A DNA stretch of 64,000 bases, from NCBI RefSeq assembly GCF_040183065.1, contig NC_091123.1:15008501-15072500 (forward strand). The letters run 5' to 3'. The position numbers and the translations under genes were made by a program. The notes below the pieces were generated by a model that did not search any database, had not been told where the DNA came from, and saw nothing but the letters and a program-made list of their open reading frames with translations. The DNA comes from Periplaneta americana (lineage: Eukaryota > Arthropoda > Insecta > Blattodea > Blattidae). This document shows, piece after piece, positions 11,880 to 64,000 of the stretch (within the stretch, counting starts at the first letter, position 1; the number at the start of each line of letters is the position of its first letter).

Positions 11880-12231
11880 CTTTGTAATTTAAGACGGCGC
11901 TTATTCCGTCGGATCCCGGCCACTTAGTCACTCATAACGAGTGCATCTCTGCACATGTGTGGACATTGTGCCACTGTCATACATCTATGACGCAGTGCAT
12001 AGGGTAGGCCACTAGAGGGAACCCAAGAGGTGGAACTTAAACTGAAAGGATTCGATCCGACATCGGGATGGGAATCTGGTGTCGCTTAATGGATAGAGCG
12101 TCAGCACTTAGAGCTGAAAAGCCGGGTTCAAATCCCGGTGCCGCATGCCGGAGAGAATTTTTTTCTGTTCCACTCTTCCTTCTTCATATATCTTGTCTTT
12201 CCATTTCACAGGCTCTGTTCTTCACTATATC

Positions 12232-12300
<69 letters not shown>
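11880..12300 (+). mobile_element. tRNA-derived SINE with (ATT)n tail
   Basis: The tRNA-like segment 12068-12145 contains TTAATGGATAGAGCG and the B box GGTTCAAATCC (12125-12135) followed by the complementary CCGG. A body of about 90 bp leads into (ATT)n at 12233-12299. The sequence upstream (11890-12060) may be part of the head or a separate insertion. Not a functional tRNA gene: the anticodon arm is not convincing. Confidence 0.65.
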
Positions 12301-26999: not shown

Positions 27000-27935
27000 C
27001 ACGGCGTAGTACAGTAGTGATCGGAGTAGTACAGTAGTGCACGGCATGGCACAGTAGTGCACGGCGTTGAACAACATCGCACGGCGCAGTCCGCGCAGTA
27101 CATTATCGCACGGCTTGATACAGTAGCTCACGGCGTAGTACAGTAGTGAACGGCGTAGTAGCCTACAGTAGTGCACGGCATGGCACAGTAGTGCACGGCG
27201 TTGAACAACATCGCACGGCGCAGTCCGCGCAGTACATTATCGCACGGCTTGATACAGTAGCTCACGGCGTAGTACAGTAGTGAACGGCGTAGTAGCCTAC
27301 AGTAGTGCACGGCATGGCACAGTAGTGCACGGCGTTGAACAACATCGCACGGCGCAGTCCGCGCAGTACATTATCGCACGGCTTGATACAGTAGCTCACG
27401 GCGTAGTACAGTAGTGAACGGCGTAGTAGCCTACAGTAGTGCACGGCATGGCACAGTAGTGCACGGCGTTGAACAACATCGCACGGCGCAGTCCGCGCAG
27501 TACATTATCGCACGGCTTGATACAGTAGCTCACGGCGTAGTACAGTAGTGAACGGCGTAGTAGCCTACAGTAGTGCACGGCATGGCACAGTAGTGCACGG
27601 CGTTGAACAACATCGCACGGCGCAGTCCGCGCAGTACATTATCGCACGGCTTGATACAGTAGCTCACGGCGTAGTACAGTAGTGAACGGCGTAGTAGCCT
27701 ACAGTAGTGCACGGCATGGCACAGTAGTGCACGGCGTTGAACAACATCGCACGGCGCAGTCCGCGCAGTACATTATCGCACGGCTTGATACAGTAGCTCA
27801 CGGCGTAGTACAGTAGTGAACGGCGTAGTAGCCTACAGTAGTGCACGGCATGGCACAGTAGTGCACGGCGTTGAACAACATCGCACGGCGCAGTACAGTA
27901 GCTCACGGCGTAGTACAGTAGTGATCGGCGTAGTA
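27000..27935. repeat. Tandem repeat, 134-bp unit, about six copies
   Basis: The unit contains the words GCACGGCATGGCACAGTAGT, TTGAACAACATCGCACGGCG, CAGTCCGCGCAGTACATTAT and GTGAACGGCGTAGTAGCCTA. Each unit is built of about 20-bp subrepeats around CACGGCGTAGTACAGTAGTG. Copies from 27034 onward look identical; the ends are partial. The minus strand is open for about 60 codons in each unit, a by-product of the repeat. Confidence 0.95.
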
Positions 27936-29435: not shown

Positions 29436-29502
29436 ATGTTTAACGTTGAAGTATCGCTTTCCTTCGTTTTCTTCTTGCTTCTGACGACGTCAAAAACAAA
29501 AG
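29436..29502 (+). CDS. Exon 1: signal peptide
   Basis: ATG in context ACAATG; 22 codons plus one base, ending AAAG before GTACGT. The hydrophobic core is VSLSFVFFLLL. The donor leaves phase 1. The same exon with six substitutions, four of them silent, is present at 55393-55459. Confidence 0.75.
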
Positions 29503-31596: not shown

Positions 31597-34500
31597 ATAT
31601 TAATTTTTTCTGTGCCTAGGTACTGCCCATCTTTTGTTTCCACACGAATCCCCATAAATCAGTCAGAAATGCTATGCGTGCTTTAAATGATCCTCTGTGT
31701 ACGGCAGTGGTTTACAATGTGCTAAGGACTGCAGACTCAAAAAGCAAGCTATGGACCCCTGTGTTTGGAAATGTTGATTTTTGTATGGTAGTTATCTATG
31801 CGAAGAAATTACAAAAATATATAGTGTGATTTAGTTACAAAAAATAGACAAATTCAATTGCACTAACTTCTATTAACTTATAAGTGATTAAAATATGACA
31901 TGTTCAACGCTACGGTACTCAACCTGAATGTGATGAGAGAAATCTTGCCTGTTTTTTGCCCTGAAAAATGCGTTCTATATCCGATTCAATATTACATACA
32001 TTTAGTCTTAATTGTGATAAAGAATGAATCGATTTCTTTGTCTGTTTTTCGTTTTATTTCGTCCATGAAGAATGAAGATATCTGAAAAAAAGTAAATATT
32101 TCAGATTTCTTATGTATTGTATTATAATCAGGAAAATTGTCACTTAGAATTGGCCCAGTGTAATTATTAAAAGTGTTTTCAATGAACTATCATAACTGAT
32201 TCATAAGTATAATCCCTATCATAATATACAGTAGAATTCCTCGTATCCGGCAACTGTGGGACAAAGCCAGTGCCGGATAACTGACTTTGCCGGATAATTG
32301 GGAAATATGTTTTAGGTTATGAAAAGACATACTGTACTGCACAAACATTTTTTTCCATGTTGAAATTTAGTAAGTTAATTTTCGTGTAGATATTTAAAAA
32401 TAAAGTTTTGTAATACGTACAATGTTTATTTTTTGTACTGAATACGGTAATGTAGATTAATCAGTTCATAATTACAGTAATACATAATAGCGTAAAAATA
32501 CTAAAAGTGTTCGTAACCTTACTATAATTTTAAATGGCTGCCATGTGACATGTTTCCTGGCAAATACTCTGTAGTAATATCTTCTCACTCTCCCAATTCT
32601 TTGCTTTTCTCGACCGCTGTTTCCTAAACATGTCCGCTAGTGCTGCTTATGACTAGGTTTTCTCCGGAGCGGTTGTTTGCGCGCTTTCAATCGGAGACCT
32701 CCGGTTACCTCCGATTGATGCCGCGCAGGTTGTATATGTGCTGTGGCGCAGACATACACTTTCCGCTGAGCATTCCTTTAGTCGGATCAGGTAGTAATTC
32801 GAGTCTGCTGACGTCCGCGTATCTTTTAAAATAAGTTCTAATTTGTTGTTGTTTAATCTCTCTTTTATGTTAATCTCTCTCTCTTTCTTCGGCTCTTTTT
32901 TTTTTGTGTTGCTTAAAGTGCTACGTTAGCTGACAGATTTTTTTTTTTTCTAGTTTTGAAATTCATAGTATATGTGAAAAGCCGTATTAGTTTTATGTCA
33001 TTGATCAAATTAATAACATTCAATCTAACTGCAAAACTAACGCAAGAGTAAAGCTTTTCGGTAGCTAATGTAAACATTTATATTTTAATTCTCCTAGAAA
33101 CTCTCGTTTAATCGCAAACAGGGTTTGTCAATTATTATTCTAATCGGTTTAGTTAACGTAAAATATATTAAGGGAGTTTCAGAATGAAACAAAAGAAACG
33201 TGGGCTATCAATGGGATAAAGTTTACTGTCCAACATAATTTATTCAGATTCTTCACCGGACAGGATTGTGATTATTGTGTTAAAGGGTGTCAGTATTTGA
33301 ACTGCCTCTTCTAAAACGCGCCACTCTTGCTCTGTAATAAAAATATAAATGGATATAAATTTAAGGATAATTGTAATAATATTATTACCAGATGTTTCTT
33401 TAGTTTCATTCAGAAATATTTTAATCCATACAGTAAAATATAACTCAAGTTGTCTAAACAATAAAATATAACTCAAGTCGTCTTGTAAATATATCATATG
33501 TTTTTTATTGCCTTGAAAGTTACGTTTTAGAGAAATTTCGAGACTTTTTCATAGACTGTGAGCCTTTGGGAACAACAGCACTAAAACAATTTAAAAAGAA
33601 ATCGTATCAAATGTTTTGCGTAATTGTTTTCATCAAGTTCGCGATTGTGTGATCGCTTCAAATGGTCTAACAAATTCGAAGTTCCACCACCCTTAGAGTA
33701 AATTCGACCACAAAGTTTACAGTGTCCGAATTATTATTACTACCTACTAAATTAAAGGATTTCCATGCGACGGATATCTGATTTGGTGCCATTTCATTCC
33801 ACTCACAACTACCGTCAGTCCGTACGCGCCGGTCGTCCTTGAGCTAACTGTCGCTTCGTTCCGAACCCCCGCAACCCTCCGTATGTCCCCTGTTCCACCT
33901 ACGGTAGTACCGGAGATCACCGGTGGAGAGCTTTATTCGTAATCTCCGATTCCTCCGTAGCACTGATGTCCGCCCATCTCAATCCAATAGCATCCTGTAC
34001 AATTTATGAAAACAAATAGGCTTTGCTGCAAAATTTCCCTAAATAATTCAGTTTCCCACATCATCATTACGCTGTATATTACTCCATTATTTTCATATAT
34101 CATCTCAACGTCTCTACATGGTCTCTGCAGCTGAAAAGCATTAAATTTACTAATTGGTTACGCAGGTAACAATGCGGCGATTGGGGATTACTGCGAGGTG
34201 GACAAGAACTGCCTCACCAGGCAAATGGTGTGCGGACCTGGACAGGTCTGCGAATGTCTCCAGGGCCATTACGCCTCAGAGGACAACAGAAACTGCATTG
34301 CAAGTAAGTACCACTTTCTACTGTCATCCTCTGAGGAGTTTAGTGCTGAGAGGAATGCGATTCCGACTAGTCTAGCGCGGTACTGGAGTGGGAGGGAACA
34401 GTGACAGTGGCAGTCTGGAAGGAAGTACAGTCATACTGAAAACATTCGCCCAATTTACGAGAGCAGTATGCCTATTAGTTTTCTAACGTATTTTTGGCGA

Positions 34501-37344: not shown

Positions 37345-38523
37345 TAATAATAATAATAATAATGTTTTATTTTCGCTGGCAGAGTTAAGGCCATAAGGCC
37401 TTCTCTTCCACTCAACCAGCCTTAATCAATACAATACATATTTAAATTACAAACTAAACTTAAAAGGTTCTCCTGCAATATTCTTCAATTTTAACGACTA
37501 GTAGACTACATATTTATTTAAATTTAGATAAACCTATAAGGTAAAGTAGTAACTTAATTAATGAGCTAATTTAATTCAATCAATTATAAATAATTTAATA
37601 TTTGGGATAGCTAGTAAAATGATGAAAATTAATTTAATATAAGCTTACTAGACCTATGTTACAGGGAGAAAAAAAATATATATATATATATAAATCTAAA
37701 ATATATTTTTATAATGAGAATATTAATGTAATTGCCATTAGAGGTTTTGTAAATCTATTTAGAGAAATTAATGATGATAATAAGAATGGACAGATGTTAG
37801 TTTCATTATAAGTAACAAATATTAATCAGCAATTAATCTGTTAAGTAAGAATTTATACAATTTTGACCTAAATGAAGTAAGTTATTGTCCAACAACCCCT
37901 TACATCACTCGGAAGCGAGTTCCAATTTCTAGCAACTGAAACTGTATAAGACTGGGGGGGGGGGGGGAAACAGACGTATATCACGGCCTGCTGGAGTATA
38001 GTAAACACAGAAAACATTTTAAAGCAACAATGTTGAAGATAGATATTTTTGTTTCCCAAATTTGCCTTCATTGAACAGAAACCAAGATGGAGATTTCATT
38101 GCAAATATTTAGAAATTCATCTTTCAGGTATGTAATAAACGATCTTCGCACAAAATAATGTACGATACACGAGCGGTATGTTTTCTTTCAATTCTCGGAA
38201 ATTAAAAAAGCTCAACTACGTTTCGCTTTTTCAAACTTTTCCTCGAAGATGAAAACTTCAACATACCGCTCTTGTAACGCAGATTACTATTTTGACATGT
38301 CTGTCTCCATAGATAATTTTTTTTATACCATTAGTTTGATTTTTAATTCTTGTCTCACGATTAATTTATTTTCTCTATTTTCGAGCATACTTATAATTCT
38401 AATATTCCCAAATATTTCATTTTGTATGATTTACACAGATCGTCCACCTCTGCTTCGGCATGTGGGCGTGAGGCCAGCAGCCGGCTGGTCGGTCTAGGCC
38501 CTTCACGGGCTGTAGCGCCACAG

Positions 38524-38567
<44 letters not shown>

Positions 38568-41500
38568 GATTTACACAGCTACGAGTGGGATTTGCTTCGA
38601 ACCTGCAGACTGTGCGAGCTTGTCTTATTCCACCTGTGTGTACATGAATGAGATAAGTGGCGAATGCATGTGCAAGGAAGGATACGCACCCAGTGAGGAC
38701 GAAAAGGAATGTCTCGCAGGTAGATATAGAAAGCAAACATTGTGATACTGATTCTTTAAACCCTTCATATGCAATGTCTGTAAACGGTACTGTTTACGAG
38801 TATATACGACGTTTCTCCGTTTCATAAAACATATTACTCTGCCAAATTGCATCCGGAGCTCTTCATTTTTGAATGAGTAACTATTTAGCCAGGCAGCGAA
38901 ATTTGTTGCCCGATGAAACAGGTTTGCTATTCCTTTACTATATACTGTTTTCGCTGTAAGAAAAATCCTAATGTAAACATAAGCACGTTGCTCTCATAGC
39001 TACTCGTGATTGGTTCCCAGTCGAAACACTCGCACGACGCAGGGAAATATAGTTCGTATTTGGAAACCATAATCTTGTGGTATTTGAAAATAAAAAATTA
39101 AATTCTAGTTGTTAAATACGATGTAACATATAAACTTCACTCATATGTAAAACGCTATGTAAAAGAAAAGCTACTTTTATATTTTATTATGTACTATGAA
39201 CGCGGATGAATACCAACAGTAATACCGAGGTATAATCTTTTCGCTGTAAGAAAAATCCTAATGTAAACATAAGCACGTTGCTCTCATAGCTACTCGTGAT
39301 TGGTTCCCAGTCGAAACACTCGCACGACGCAGGGAAATATAGTTCGTATTTGGAAACCATAATCTTGTGGTATTTGAAAATAAAAAATTAAATTCTAGTT
39401 GTTAAATACGATGTAACATATAAACTTCACTCATATGTAAAACGCTATGTAAAAGAAAAGCTACTTTTATATTTTATTATGTACTATGAACGCGGATGAA
39501 TACCAACAGTAATACCGAGGTATAATCTTTTCGCTGTAAGAAAAATCCTAATGTAAACATAAGCACGTTGCTCTCATAGCTACTCGTGATTGGTTCCCAG
39601 TCGAAACACTCGCACGACGCAGGGAAATATAGTTCGTATTTGGAAACCATAATCTTGTGGTATTTGAAAATAAAAAATTAAATTCTAGTTGTTAAATACG
39701 ATGTAACATATAAACTTCACTCATATGTAAAACGCTATGTAAAAGAAAAGCTACTTTTATATTTTATTATGTACTATGAACGCGGATGAATACCAACAGT
39801 AATACCGAGGTATAATCTTTTCGCTGTAAGAAAAATCCTAATGTAAACATAAGCACGTTGCTCTCATAGCTACTCGTGATTGGTTCCCAGTCGAAACACT
39901 TGCACGACGCAGGAAAATATAGTTCGTATTAGGAAACCATAATCTTGTATTATTTGAAAATAAAAAATTGAATTCTAGTTGCTAAATATGATGAAACATA
40001 TAACTTCACTCATATGTAAAACGCTATGTAAAAGAAAAGCTACTTTTATATTTTGTTATGTACTATGAACGCGGATGAATACCAACAGTAATACCGAGGT
40101 ATAATCTTTTCGCTGTACGAAAAATCCTAATGTAAACAATAGCACGTGACTGAAGTGAGGCTTCATTGGCCACTGTTTGGCGCCATAGATTCTCTGTACG
40201 TGTTCCCGCCTATTGTTGTACATTCTGTTCCATGTTAAACATTTCCCTTACTCATCATGTAGGCCTAACCTCAATACTATGCATTCGTTTGCTTAGAAAA
40301 TATTTACTTTATAATTAAATTATTTTTAAACTTAGGCATAAAGTCAATCGCTGCCAGACAACGGAGTTATTCCTTCCAATCGGAGTCGTCAGAACTATCG
40401 TCGGCAGGATTTATGACAGCGTCAGTTATCCCTTCCAGCTGGAACGTTGGATTCAACTCACTTAACTTATTATAGACATTTAAGACTATTTGTTATTCTC
40501 CGCATTTTAAAGGGTTTCCACTCTTATGTTTAATAACCACACACACCGAGGATGCAGAAGCAATACTTCAGTACCACGTGCTTAAGTGAACAACTACGAG
40601 CTCAAGTGACACCATCTTGTTACAAGAACAGACTATCTCGGTATTACTGTTGGTATTCATCCGCGTTCATAGTACATAACAAAATATAAAAGTAGCTTTT
40701 CTTTTACATAGCGTTTTACATATGAGTGAAGTTATATGTTTCGTCATATTTAGCAACTAGAATTCAATTTTTTATTTTCAAATAATACAAGATTATGGTT
40801 TCCTAATACGAACTATATTTTCCTGCGTTATGTGAGTGTTTCGACTGGGAGCCAATCACGGGTATGACAGCAACGTGCTTATGTTTACATTAGGATTTTT
40901 CTTACAGCGAAAACAATATAGTCTGTTCTTGTAACAAGCTGGCGTCACTTGAGTCCGTAGTTGTTCACGTAAGCACGTGGTACTCAAGTATGGCTTCTGC
41001 ATCCTCGGTGTGTGTTGTGGAAACCCTCTCAAAAGCGGAGAAAAACAAATAGTCTTAAATGTATGTAATAAGTTAAGTGAGTTGAATCCAACATTATCTG
41101 TTCAGAGCAAGTCAATCAGACCGCATGTTCCATCTGGAAGGATAACAGCTGACGCTGTTGTGGACCTTCTCGTCATAAATCCTGCCGACGATAGTTCTGA
41201 CGACTCCGATATGGAAGGAATAACTCCTCTGTCCGGCAGCGATTGACCTTACATCTAAGTTTAAAATAATTTAATTACAGTAATTGTAACGTAAATGTTT
41301 CCTAAGCAAACGAATGCATAGTAGTGAGGTTAGGCCTACTTAAATGTTTAGATGATAATAACATGAAACAGAATGTACAACAGTAGGCGGGAACATGTAC
41401 TGAGAATCTAGGGCGCCAAACAGCGGCCAATGAAGCCTCACTTCAGTCACGTGCTATTGTTTACATTAGGATTTTTCTTACAGCGAAAAGATTATAGGTA

Positions 41501-43279
41501 CAGGTTTGTTTACTTGCGCGTGAGTAGAGTCATGGTCGCAATAGAGAAGGATATGTAGACACCACAGATTTTGGCATAATGACCTGAAGTGTAGAATGAA
41601 AATAGAAATTTCTGACTAGGGTGCAGTCGTGTCAGGACGGACCAGGGCGCCACCTCGGTACTTTTTTCTGCAATTTCGGAGTGCCCTGCTTCTTTACTTC
41701 TACTTTTAAAATAACAATTGTCTTACTTGCTTCTTATTCAACTTTGTATTAGGCCTATACAAGTATGGATTAGTAGTAAATAGCAGCGGACTACTACTGC
41801 TACTATTACTACTAGAGTCGAAGGCAATTCGGAGGGCGGTAGTCTGCTAGCATTTGCGTCGAGAGAGACAGATGGAGAGAGCAAGGCAGCATACAACATT
41901 GCCACATCGTACTTCACTAGAGTAAGATCGTCATAGGCCAAGAAGAAGCTTTGCTTTTTCATAATACGTTTTGATAAATTGTTTGTTACTGTATTACAAA
42001 AAATAGCTAATCAATTATTATTTTCCAAAATAGCTTTAGGCCTATATCATTATCAACATTAGCAATGCTTCAATTTTCTTTTTTCTGTCTAACTTTCTTC
42101 CATGCCTTGTTTAATTTTTCTGTCTTGTGATGCCATTATCATTTTTCCATTTAAGTCTACCTATTTAAAGTATTTATTTTTGGAAACCATATCTGCTTTC
42201 TTATATACCGGTACCGTAATTACAGACTTCATTTCTTTTCATTGTCAGATGCAATGCTTTCTGGTAGGTCTATTAAGTATTACTCTCAAACCTCTTTCTT
42301 TAAAATGTTATTAATTTCATTTTTAGTTTTTGTGTATTCTTTTTGGCTAAATTTCATGTCCCCTTTCGTGTAAACAAGAGTGTGCAGAATAATTTTATTT
42401 ATTTATAAATATGACATTTTTATTTTCTAGCACTAACTGTACTTTGTAATGTAGGACTATTGAGCAGGACGAAAAATTATGTTCTACTGTCTTCCTCCGA
42501 CGAATTTAGTGCTGGGACCTGAGGTATTCTTGCCATCGGTGCGGGGGGTTGCAGGTAGATTATTTTGTTGCTACAGCCAAGCCGAGCCGAGCGGAGTGGG
42601 AAGTATTAATCGTCCAAAAATATGCAGTCTTCAGTTTGTAGTAGTGTGTGACTGTGTGCACGAGTTAGGTACTCTATATACGAGTGAAATGTTTTCAGTA
42701 TGATTGCACTTCCTTCCAGACTGCCGCTGTCACTGTTCCCTCCCAACCCAGTACCGCGTTAGACTAGTCGGAACTGCATTCCTCTCAGCACTAAACTCCT
42801 CAGGGGATGACAGTACCTGAATAGTGTATTGTAACTTCATTTTCAGTAGTCCAGAAAGGTCAAAATTGACCATGCTGGAGACATAGGCCTACTTCTTATC
42901 TTAGCTTTGGGATAGTTCATACCCTTAATTTAATAATTAACTTGGTTCCGAATATCCTCTAAAAATGTCTAAAAATAATAAAACTCACAGAAGCCAAAAT
43001 TTTATATACAGTACCTTACACTGTTGAAGGTTCCTTCATAACTAGGTATGCTTGAAATGTCCTTGAAGTACAAAATGTACCTAACAGAAGTCTTGCGTAT
43101 CGAATTAACAGATGTTGGATACCAGGGCTTTTGCAAACAAACCAGCCAGTGCACAACCATGCTCGGGGACTACGCCAGCTGCGTGCAAGATACGAGTGCG
43201 GGTACAGGTACAGGCACATGTGGATGTCAGACAGATTTTCACTACTCTAATGTAGATGAAATATGTATTGCAGATGTCA
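29436..43279 (+). CDS. Secreted six-cysteine-module protein, exons 1-4 (partial gene)
   Basis: Exons by splice sites and frame: 29436-29502, 34166-34303, 38579-38719, 43112-43279, giving 514 nt and about 171 residues without a stop. Exon 1 codes a signal peptide (MFNVEVSLSFVFFLLLTTSK). Exons 2-4 each code one module C-x5-C-x6..9-C-x5..12-C-x1-C-x12-C. All introns are phase 1, so module exons are interchangeable without frame change. The pattern resembles EB/EGF-like modules of secreted insect proteins. I infer an extracellular role; the ligand is unknown. If the donor after exon 4 is not used the frame ends seven codons later (VSKYIVT), so exon 4 might be terminal; otherwise later exons were not found. 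Introns of 4.3-4.7 kb are full of transposons. A paralog starts at 55393. Confidence 0.75.
29503..30431 (+). other. Intron 1, proximal part
   Basis: Closely related to 55460-56345, with a (CAT)n tract at 29755-29802 that is shorter in the paralog. No exon is visible here. Confidence 0.6.
30432..31423 (-). mobile_element. Non-autonomous Helitron, copy 3, in intron 1
   Basis: On the minus strand: TC start at 31423, end CTAG at 30432, A and T on the outer sides. The central block matches copy 2. The paralogous intron near 56345 lacks it, running from TTATTTAAA directly into a (GAAT)-rich tract, so this insertion is younger than the tandem duplication. Confidence 0.85.
31424..31607. repeat. (AAAT)n microsatellite
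   Basis: AAAT units with some AAAC and GACA variants, directly after the Helitron 5' end. It was probably the target tract of the Helitron, since the paralog has a related tract at the same place. Confidence 0.9.
31608..34165 (+). other. Intron 1, distal part, mostly unassigned
   Basis: At 32233-32290 a sequence beginning TACAGTAGAATTCCTCGTAT with repeated CCGGATAA words looks like one end of a Tigger-like element whose other end I could not find. The GC-richer islands at 32640-32800 and 33800-33970 show partly inverted similarity (CTCCGGAGCGG; ACCTCCGGTTACCTCCG). No exon recognised. Confidence 0.35.
34166..34303 (+). CDS. Exon 2: first six-cysteine module
   Basis: Acceptor TTACGCAG, donor GTAAGT, 138 nt (46 codons), phase 1 at both ends. 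Codes GDYCEVDKNCLTRQMVCGPG, then QVCECLQGHYASEDNRNC; spacing C-x5-C-x6-C-x5-C-x1-C-x12-C. An overlapping frame that opens at 34154 is a shadow. Confidence 0.8.
34321..35360. mobile_element. TIR element split by later insertions, next to exon 2 donor
   Basis: Ends CTGTCATCCTCTGAGGAGTT and AACTCGTCGGAGGAAGACAG correspond to the two ends of the compact element at 42487-42813, in inverse orientation. The middle is occupied by a (TTTA)n tract and a LINE-C 3' fragment. The left TA target is 34319-34320; the right one is mutated. It begins 17 nt after the last base of exon 2. Confidence 0.7.
34560..35010 (-). mobile_element. (TTTA)n and LINE-C 3' fragment
   Basis: (TTTA)n to about 34688, then AGTGAAGTTAAGGCCATCAC, the minus-strand end of LINE-C, and its AT-rich 3' UTR. 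Inserted in the TIR element. Confidence 0.55.
35361..36065 (+). other. Intron 2 sequence, unassigned
   Basis: AT-rich with a GA-rich stretch at 35800-35880. No recognisable feature. Confidence 0.4.
36066..36278 (-). mobile_element. LINE-A 3' fragment interrupted by a MITE
   Basis: LINE-A end (TTACTTACAAATGGATTTTA, GGAGGTTCATTGCCGCCCTC) running up to CTCCCAACTAACACTCTA, continued at 36709-36766 after the MITE. Confidence 0.85.
36279..36708. mobile_element. Tigger-like MITE, 430 bp
   Basis: Left end CAGTACAGCATCGATTATCC, right end reverse complement CAGTAGAGCATCGATTATCC, flanked by TA (36277-36278, 36709-36710). The TA belongs to the interrupted LINE-A, where it is single. No coding capacity. 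Confidence 0.8.
36709..36766 (-). mobile_element. LINE-A fragment, continuation after the MITE
   Basis: TATACATTTCTGGATTCACC onward to CTCAAACGTCTG, collinear with other copies. Confidence 0.8.
36767..37294 (+). other. Intron 2 sequence, unassigned
   Basis: AT-rich. No exon or repeat recognised. Confidence 0.4.
37295..37985 (-). mobile_element. LINE-C 3' end with (AAT)n tail
   Basis: (AAT)n at 37295-37362, then GGCAGAGTTAAGGCCATAAG (the family's 3' end), a UTR of about 450 bp, and at the right SVARNWNSLPSDVRGC on the minus strand (the WNSLP motif of the RT C-terminus). A G-run at 37955-37969 is unusual. Confidence 0.7.
38425..38578 (+). mobile_element. 5'-truncated SINE duplicating the exon-3 acceptor
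   Basis: An insertion of 126 bp (38439-38564) ending in (ATT)n is flanked by 14-bp direct repeats TATGATTTACACAG (38425-38438 and 38565-38578). The right repeat forms the acceptor of exon 3. The body (TGGTCGGTCTAGGCCCTTCA, CGGGCTGTAGCGCCAC) looks like a SINE 3' region. Confidence 0.85.
38579..38719 (+). CDS. Exon 3: second six-cysteine module
   Basis: Acceptor TTTACACAG, donor GTAGAT (weaker than the others), 141 nt (47 codons), phase 1 at both ends. Codes GICFEPADCASLSYSTCVYM then NEISGECMCKEGYAPSEDEK and EC; spacing C-x5-C-x7-C-x9-C-x1-C-x12-C. The pyrimidine-rich sequence that originally preceded this acceptor now lies upstream of the SINE. Confidence 0.8.
38947..40109. repeat. Tandem repeat, 290-bp unit, four copies, in intron 3
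   Basis: Units start TTTTCGCTGTAAGAAAAATC at about 38949, 39239, 39529 and 39819. The first three look identical; the fourth differs at about a dozen positions and has a period of 289. An inverted fifth copy is at 40640-40915, more like the fourth. Confidence 0.95.
40101..41496. mobile_element. Inverted duplicate of a TIR-derivative element
   Basis: The left arm 40101-40636 and right arm 40919-41496 are inverse complements apart from deletions of about 38 and 15 bp and scattered changes. Both outer ends read ATAATCTTTTCGCTGTA inward. Between them sits the inverted 290-bp unit. Each arm carries the shortened transposase frame described at 40977. Confidence 0.8.
40977..41246 (+). pseudogene. 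Internally deleted DDE transposase: N- and C-termini joined
   Basis: The open frame contains LKSGEKQIVLNVCNKLSELN, the N-terminal signature of an insect IS630-like transposase, followed after a short gap by VVDLLVINPADDSSDDSDME, its acidic C-terminus (compare VDRFVISLDSDSDDDD at about 1695-1745). The whole DDE core is missing. The inverse copy in the left arm (about 40345-40560) is further decayed. Confidence 0.6.
41497..42484 (+). other. Intron 3 sequence, unassigned
   Basis: Mixed composition with no recognised repeat; some short ACT/CTA-rich runs at 41785-41815. Confidence 0.35.
42487..42813. mobile_element. TA-flanked MITE, 327 bp
   Basis: Ends CTGTCTTCCTCCGACGAATT and, from the right, CTGTCATCCCCTGAGGAGTT; TA at 42485-42486 and 42814-42815. 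The same family as the split element at 34321-35360. Tc1/mariner-type target; no coding capacity. Confidence 0.8.
43112..43279 (+). CDS. Exon 4: third six-cysteine module
   Basis: Acceptor ATTAACAG, donor GTAAGTAT, 168 nt (56 codons), phase 1 at both ends. Codes GFCKQTSQCTTMLGDYASC, then VQDTSAGTGTGTCGCQTDFH and EIC; spacing C-x5-C-x9-C-x12-C-x1-C-x12-C. A GT/GA repeat (GGTACAGGTACAGGCACA) expands the third loop. If the donor is skipped, the frame stops after seven more codons; AATAAA at about 43420 could then serve as a polyadenylation signal. Confidence 0.75.
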
Positions 43280-46572: not shown

Positions 46573-47895
46573 CGAGGCGCATCCAGAAAGTAAGTTTTCC
46601 TATTAAAAAAAAAAAAGAACACACACTTTCAGGAAAACATTTATTGGCAACAGGTACAGTTATGTTTCAGCTATTTTTCAACATAGCCATCATCAGAATT
46701 GAGACACTTGTCGTATCGCGGGATCAACTTTTGTATCCCTCTGTCGTAGAACTCTGCCGCCTGTGAATGGAACCAGCGTGTGACAGACGTTTTCAGCTCT
46801 TCGTCGTTGCCAAAACGCTCACCGGACGACAGGAATTTCTTGAGGTGCAAGAAAACGTGAAAATCGCTGGGAGCAAGATCAGGACTGTAGGGTGGATGAT
46901 CAAACAACTCCCAACCAAATTCCGTCAAAATAGCTGCTGTGCGCCGAGCCGTATGTGGACGAGCATTGTCATGGAGGAGCACAACACCTGCAGTAAGCAT
47001 TCCACGCCTCTTGTTTTGAATGGCACGTCGCAATTTTCGCAGTGTTTCACAGTAACAGTCTCTGTTTCACCTCTTGGAAGGAAGTCAATGAGCAGACTGC
47101 CCTTCCTCTCCCAGAACACCGTGCACATCACTTTCCGTACCGACAGCGTCTGTTTGAATTTCGTCCTGACCGGAGATCCACTATGCCGCCAATGCATTGA
47201 CTGCTGCTTGGTTTCCAGGGTGAAGTGCGAAATCCAAGTCTCATCGCCCGTGACGATCCTGCCGAGGAACTCGTCGCCGTCATCGTGATACCGTTGCAGA
47301 AATGTGAGTGCTGCTCCTAAACGTTGCATTTTGTGTTCGGGTGTCAGGTTTTTCGGCACCCACCTGGCACACACTTTTTTGAACAGCAGGTGCTTAGAGA
47401 CAATCTCATGCAACAAGGATCGCGATATCTGCGGAAAATAACTGCTCAGCTCCGTAATCGTGAAGTGACGGTTCTCCATGATACACTGTCGCACCAGCTC
47501 AACACGATCATCATTGATGAGGGACGGTCGCCCACTGCGCTCATCATGGACATTTTGACGACCTTCGGAAAACTGCCTACACCAGCGACGCACCATCTGC
47601 TTACTCATGATGTTCGGCCCATAGACCTGACAGAGCTGCCGATGAATTTCAATTGGCGCAATGCTTTGTGCATTAAAGAACTTTATCACCGACCGAACCT
47701 CGCAGGCGGCGGGAGAAGGAATAAGAGCTACCATTTCGGACCACTACTGCCAAGCTACTGGCACCAGGCGGGACCTGTCCGGCTGGCATATGATTGATAC
47801 GTCATAGATCTGTTACGCATGCGCAATTGACACGGCTAATTACGTTTACTTTCAAGGGGAAAAAATCGGGAAACTTACTTTCTGGATGCGCCTCG
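46573..47895 (-). mobile_element. mariner element with exact TIRs, 1323 bp
   Basis: Both ends read CGAGGCGCATCCAGAAAGTA followed by AGTTT, identical for about 25 bp, and TA flanks each side (46571-46572, 47896-47897). It contains one nearly complete transposase on the minus strand. Length and structure are those of a full-size mariner. Confidence 0.93.
46671..47734 (-). pseudogene. mariner transposase, one apparent frameshift
   Basis: Frame 1 starts MVALIPSPAACEVRSVIKFF at 47734 and runs through the HTH domains (VRRWCRQFSEGR; ITELSSYFPQISRSLLHEIV), the linker WVPKNLTPEHK (usual WVPHEL), and the first catalytic Asp (IVTGDETWISHF). Near 47050 the frame shifts; the second frame carries LLHDNARPHTA and YSPDLAPSDFHVF with exactly 34 residues between the Asp residues, the D34D signature of mariner. 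It ends at 46671. Total length about 354 codons, the family norm. All three catalytic Asp residues are present, so a single change broke it. The plus-strand open frames here are shadows. Confidence 0.9.
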
Positions 47896-55392: not shown

Positions 55393-55459
55393 ATGTTTAA
55401 CGTTGAAGTATCTCTTTCGTTTCTTTTCTTCTTGCTGCTGATGACGTCAAAAACAAAAG
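55393..55459 (+). CDS. Exon 1 of the tandem paralog (signal peptide)
   Basis: Codes MFNVEVSLSFLFFLLLMTSK, ending AAAG before GTATGT, phase 1. It differs from the first copy by six substitutions: four silent, and V11L and T17M. The following intron (55460-56345) is closely related to intron 1 of the first gene. Later exons must lie beyond the GATA array or be absent. Confidence 0.72.

Positions 55460-57279: not shown

Positions 57280-64000
<6,721 letters not shown>

Follow-up and report, generated by a model that had tools for sequence, protein, structure and literature searches.

We analyzed a 64,000-nucleotide stretch of Periplaneta americana DNA (contig NC_091123.1, positions 15,008,501 to 15,072,500 of the forward strand), hereafter the window, and predicted in it four exons of a gene together with the first exon of a paralogue. 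The exon borders are predictions that rest on reading frame, GT/AG dinucleotides and the comparison between the two gene copies.

29436 to 29502, plus strand: coding part of predicted exon 1, with the signal-peptide-like sequence MFNVEVSLSFVFFLLLTTSKTKG, donor GTACGT, phase 1
34166 to 34303, plus strand: predicted exon 2, 138 bp, phase 1-1, an EB-type Cys-rich module
38579 to 38719, plus strand: predicted exon 3, 141 bp, phase 1-1, donor GTAGAT
43112 to 43279, plus strand: predicted exon 4, 168 bp, phase 1-1, donor GTAAGT; the exon might instead start at another in-frame AG farther upstream
55393 to 55459, plus strand: first exon of the paralogue, 91% identical to exon 1 at the amino acid level

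The translation of the joined exons matches the EB module (PF01683) in three stretches with an E-value of 8.4e-9 and 35.8 bits (cut-off 24.3), and no match was found among PDB sequences or in NCBIfam at E up to 1. Exon 1 resembles a signal peptide by eye. The gene is the upstream member of a tandem duplicate and is predicted to encode a secreted EB-module protein. The predicted exons 2-5 of the paralogue are located past the end of the window. Additional Gly-Thr repeats make its exon 4 longer by 36 nt, and the two copies differ in this in-frame coding repeat. Upstream of the window, the minus strand has a weak EB-like hit (L043:2850-2969, E 3e-5 to exon 5 of the paralogue), which possibly corresponds to another EB gene. 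Tandem repeats are found at 27000-27894 (134-bp unit, 6.7 copies, 99% matches), at 38941-40147, starting ~220 bp past exon 3 (290-bp unit, about four copies, 98% matches), and at 57280-64000, where a 6.7-kb (TAGA)n array (99% matches) extends to the window end in the would-be intron 1 of the paralogue. An open frame of 269 amino acids at 46925-47734 on the minus strand may resemble a mariner-type transposase.

Directly ahead of predicted exon 3, two exact copies of a short sequence are separated by a 126-bp insert.

38425 to 38438, plus strand: upstream target-site copy with the complete acceptor, TATGATTTACACAG, an exact match
38439 to 38564, plus strand: 5'-truncated sense SINE, defined by genome matches and a consensus, with an 82-nt body (38439-38520), CAG (38521-38523) and an (ATT)n tail (38524-38564)
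38565 to 38578, plus strand: downstream target-site copy and acceptor, an exact match, in frame with exon 3

These are the sole occurrences of the sequence on the plus strand of the window, and the duplicated AGs are 140 nt apart, in line with the preliminary description, which had reported a 14-bp duplication containing the complete acceptor. A control search for exact 14-mer pairs spaced by 80-400 bp, covering the window up to 57250 minus simple-sequence words and two tandem arrays, returned 12 entries, 11 of which lie inside a self-similar block at 22.2-22.6 kb, with the 12th being the acceptor repeat itself. The length of the target duplication is best given as 11-14 bp, as the initial TAT could equally close the (ATT)n tail; the final G of the duplicate is also present in the SINE consensus. 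The whole acceptor of predicted exon 3 has been copied by the target duplication of the SINE.

We compared the insert to related copies in the 3.23-Gb assembly, which comprises 91 sequences and contains the window. Its 3' part yielded at least 40 scored genome matches from 931 first-look candidates, and at least 11 of these, the window copy included, are 100% identical over 91-92 nt. Inside the window, the search for further copies returned short chance matches alone. A consensus was built from 30 loci, with the window copy (L005) among them; these loci were chosen by similarity to the insert and are thus not representative of the age of the whole family. The consensus comprises 336 bp preceding the CAG(ATT)n tail, in which CAG is followed by a variable number of ATT units, and its 5' end is reached by 26 of the 30 loci. 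It contains an exact B box at position 66 and, with one mismatch, an A box at position 12, 11 nt from the 5' end. Of the 30 loci, 5 were compared with Rfam, among them the truncated copy of the window, and none of these matched a tRNA at E up to 0.1. The insert corresponds to the last 83 nt of the consensus without a mismatch (83/83), one base being common to the target duplicate, which bounds the divergence of the window copy at ~3.5%. The element extends 5' beyond the truncation point of the insert in 29 of the 30 fetched loci, the exception being the window copy itself, and the junction of the insert falls exactly at the target duplicate. In an automatic search for target-site duplications (TSDs), 23 loci had an exact repeat of 12 nt or more, 2 had one of 10-11 nt and 5 a shorter one, with some assignments misplaced or representing simple repeats (e.g., L004 and L008).

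Three traits of a tRNA-type SINE, namely dispersed similar copies, TSDs and a simple-repeat 3' tail, are found here. By description, the family may be compared with the Blattella germanica elements Sbg1-9. Their tRNA-type head, which has its A box 11 nt from the start, would correspond to the putative head of the cockroach consensus, and they likewise show TSDs (10-15 bp) and, in most cases, short tandem repeat tails; the portion of that report available to us names no (ATT)n tail (PMC9191728). Exact SINE patterns had 0 matches in viral and genome contig collections that hold no insect genomes, and sequence words from the SINE had no match in literature text in a partial search. A different SINE-like element is located at 12074-12299, where an (ATT)n tail comes after a tRNA-like head that matches the Rfam tRNA model (39.4 bits). 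Together, the genome matches support the earlier assignment of the insert as a SINE and show that a sense-oriented, 5'-truncated SINE ending in an (ATT)n tail landed at the 3' end of intron 2. The insertion appears to be young. A chance repeat or an assembly artefact is hardly credible in view of the perfect family match, the TSD length and tail that resemble those of the other copies, and a paralogue that is devoid of the insert.

When exon 3 and its flank were searched against the genome, a single further match was found, to exon 3 of the paralogue 46 kb downstream (90% DNA identity over 201 nt), and the upstream intron flank likewise has one. The paralogue shares the intron-exon border and has no SINE at its exon 3 acceptor, supporting an insertion in the window copy and providing a SINE-free comparison. 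In the paralogue, exon 3 is preceded by TATGATTTACAC, then TGCGATCTTGCCTCTTTC, then AG. It thereby carries 18 extra nt ending in CTTGCCTCTTTC before the AG, which are absent from both duplicated copies, and the pyrimidine fraction over positions -20 to -3 is 0.78 compared with 0.61 in the window copies. As the 18 nt are missing from both window duplicates, the indel either predates the SINE or arose in the paralogue. The exon 3 acceptor thus seems to have been changed a second time, by an indel independent of the SINE. We favor a deletion in the gene copy of the window, because the 18-nt block gives a better pyrimidine tract. No third gene copy that could polarise the indel was found in nucleotide and protein searches of the genome, the latter returning the exons of both copies together with weak matches on C15 (E 0.037, 27% identity, three stops) and C9 (E 0.46, one stop), among which there is possibly a decayed retrocopy. 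When ~200 kb around the locus, part of it reading N, were searched for the 18-mer with words down to 12 nt, the paralogue alone was found.

We next considered what each splice choice would mean for the protein. Joined to predicted exon 2, which ends in phase 1, the upstream AG gives 19 codons, 1 of them split at the junction and 18 in the insert, followed by a TAG stop, as the preliminary description had calculated. The downstream AG opens directly into the frame of exon 3. It had been called the only site that gives the correct frame, and this holds between the two duplicates; two AGs inside the SINE are in frame as well, and skipping of exon 3 (141 nt, phase 1-1) also preserves the frame.

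38496 to 38497, plus strand: AG inside the SINE, in-frame 27-codon extension with no stop, from frame reading
38514 to 38515, plus strand: AG inside the SINE, in-frame 21-codon extension with no stop, from frame reading

The last 14 intron bases are identical at the two duplicated acceptors, which leaves hardly any difference between the sites as such, and the locus is indeed a natural test of acceptor choice. The upstream copy had been described as keeping the original pyrimidine-rich sequence. It does have the longer uninterrupted pyrimidine run (5 versus 3), but the pyrimidine fractions of the two copies are equal (0.61 over -20 to -3 and 0.63 over -40 to -3), which rules out pyrimidine fraction as the main difference between them, and because both lack the 18 nt of the paralogue, the tract of the upstream copy is perhaps not the original one. 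Neither could the two sites be told apart by RNA structure: a fold that would hide one acceptor had a z-score of -1.60, but 16 of 200 shuffled sequences were equally stable, and the order of the two acceptors in predicted accessibility flips between two window sizes. The two sites differ more clearly in the AGs located between them and in a CTAAY motif, a candidate branch point in the surroundings of the upstream copy.

38399 to 38403, plus strand: CTAAT branch-point-like motif; from its A (38402) it is 36 nt to the final base of the upstream AG

This CTAAT is conserved in the paralogue. A CTAAY motif lies within 60 nt of all seven other predicted acceptors (exons 2, 3 (upstream copy) and 4, and exons 2, 3, 4 and 5 of the paralogue) versus 138 of 1428 control AGs; the seven amount to 4 independent sites once each paralogous pair is counted as one, and the count depends on the acceptors chosen, with alternatives existing for exon 4. 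The distances from CTAAY to AG are 12, 12, 13, 27, 27, 36 and 54 nt, and some of the motifs may not be branch points, 12-13 nt being short and 54 nt long. Reading on from the CTAAT, the first AG encountered is the upstream one, at a distance of 36 nt. The downstream AG is located 176 nt past it, behind seven AGs that include the upstream acceptor. Neither CTAAY nor YTRAY is present within 60 nt of the downstream copy, as is the case for ~90% (CTAAY) and 66% (YTRAY) of AGs. The 53 nt ahead of the downstream AG are an AG-free (ATT)n run, about two-thirds T, which could hold weak branch points (ATTAT, ATGAT), and the acceptor of exon 2 has no better a tract (0.61 over -20 to -3). These features, together with the identical last 14 intron nt and its position as the sole frame-keeper of the two duplicates, speak for the downstream copy as the main acceptor. 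The insert would then be removed as part of the intron with the help of the weak (ATT)n branch points or through long-range choice aided by enhancers in exon 3, and the insertion would be near-silent. We regard this as somewhat unlikely: a CTAAY or YTRAY motif is missing nearby, although this is true of most AGs, and the seven AGs intervene between the CTAAT and the site.

In human genes, the first AG after the branch point is preferred (PMC1431707), and new AGs within the AG-free zone lead either to their own use or to exon skipping (PMC7317903), as far as the available text of these studies goes. Given this preference and the position of the upstream AG as the first after the CTAAT, the upstream, frame-breaking copy is expected to dominate. 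We thus consider it marginally probable that the upstream copy dominates exon 3 inclusion, with some in-frame skipping, and that the locus represents a young, partly disabling but tolerated allele. The upstream copy would retain its probable branch point CTAAT and the AG-free run behind it, and the first AG would account for most exon 3 inclusion. The resulting 281-nt exon would contain a stop 19 codons past the junction and would probably subject the transcript to nonsense-mediated decay. In a fraction of transcripts, exon 3 would be skipped and the frame kept. The downstream acceptor, with (ATT)n alone before it, would be in minority use. Exonic enhancers may favor the downstream AG and thus act against upstream dominance.

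It is also conceivable that exon 3 is mostly skipped, the competing acceptors and the broken AG-free zone impairing exon definition and leaving a protein that is one module shorter. The symmetric phase of this exon would permit such an outcome, a SINE near the FAM161A acceptor leads to skipping (PMC3976383), and 24 of 49 NF1 variants that interrupt the AG-free zone do so as well (PMC7317903), according to the accessible parts of both reports. The upstream site, however, retains a probable branch point, tract and AG, whereas the available description of FAM161A has the acceptor displaced from its branch point (PMC3976383), and we think predominant skipping unlikely.

We compared the constraint on the exons of the window copy and the paralogue. 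In introns near exons, 27 of 308 sites differ between the two. For exons 1, 2 and 4, dN is smaller than dS (Fisher p 0.021, 0.045 and 0.091, respectively). In exon 3, dN is 0.151 and dS 0.116, giving a dN/dS of about 1.3 that does not depart from equality (Fisher p 0.76); positive selection on this exon, while possible, is thus unsupported. Replacement changes are in excess in exon 3 compared with the other exons (15:3 versus 9:12 or 10:11 depending on rounding, p 0.019 or 0.043), a modest contrast that, with no outgroup, is not assignable to one copy. The pattern fits an exon 3 that was already weakly constrained when the young SINE inserted. The missing purifying signal in exon 3 would also be expected if the window copy were a partial duplicate devoid of exon 5 and not meaningfully expressed, making acceptor choice inconsequential. 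Indeed, predicted exon 5 of the paralogue (C7:15101023-15101151) finds its best match in the window in exon 4, with 33% identity. Yet the open frames, phases and splice sites of the four predicted exons are intact, exons 1, 2 and 4 have dN below dS, and a splice from exon 4 to exon 2 of the paralogue would by our reasoning be in phase. We hold this explanation to be quite unlikely. Returning to a dominant upstream acceptor, the insertion would be a young, partly disabling allele of the upstream gene copy. As a SINE-free tandem paralogue exists, loss of exon 3 in the window copy may be tolerated, and the weak constraint on exon 3 between the copies would contribute to this tolerance.

We compared the locus to known systems. 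In the available text on the merle allele of PMEL, a SINEC_Cf element is found at the intron 10/exon 11 boundary, the acceptor being the site of its 15-bp target duplication, and SINE tail length is linked to acceptor choice (PMC6091007, PMC7349775). A SINE at the intron-exon boundary, a target duplication at the acceptor, a microsatellite-like tail and, as predicted for the cockroach, competition of the original acceptor with another one are common to both, with the cockroach SINE likewise located at the acceptor of a predicted coding exon, the position that characterizes competition of the merle kind. In merle, the SINE is antisense and contains a cryptic acceptor that uses the poly(T) of the element as its pyrimidine tract and gives an in-frame product; the cockroach SINE in contrast is sense and truncated, its rival site is the duplicated acceptor, and the product would be out of frame. 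The portions of the merle reports available to us do not describe the rival site as a duplicated target copy (PMC6091007, PMC7349775). By analogy, the (ATT)n tail might act as a length-dependent switch, with a short tail leaving the downstream site usable and a long one directing splicing to the upstream site, and with in-frame exonisation of the SINE through the AGs ending at 38497 and 38515. This is very unlikely in our estimate; if true, a single duplicated acceptor would supply all parts of a merle-like switch.

In FAM161A (PRA3), a SINE is similarly positioned just upstream of an acceptor and pushes the branch point away; the part of that report available describes no duplicated acceptor, and skipping there shifts the frame, whereas skipping of the cockroach exon 3 would not (PMC3976383). 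Introners resemble our locus in that target duplications can provide splice sites around a mobile element, but by the accessible account they give rise to introns that did not exist before, and many of them bear marks of DNA-based transposition (PMC9860276), whereas in the cockroach an existing acceptor was copied by a retroposed SINE. We rejected an identification as introner, since no new intron was created: the intron-exon border is already present in the paralogue, which is free of the insert. The cockroach case thus appears, by analogy, to be the same kind of event as the dog SINEs, with no new mechanism involved. Its special features are a rival site that exactly duplicates the acceptor and a SINE-free paralogue in the same genome. 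A partial literature search at listing level returned no insect example of a SINE-duplicated splice acceptor. At this locus, upstream context (branch point, intervening AGs and tract) and exon context can be compared within one pre-mRNA, and with the SINE-free paralogue in the same genome as a control, the locus would offer a simple insect test of the first-AG rule.
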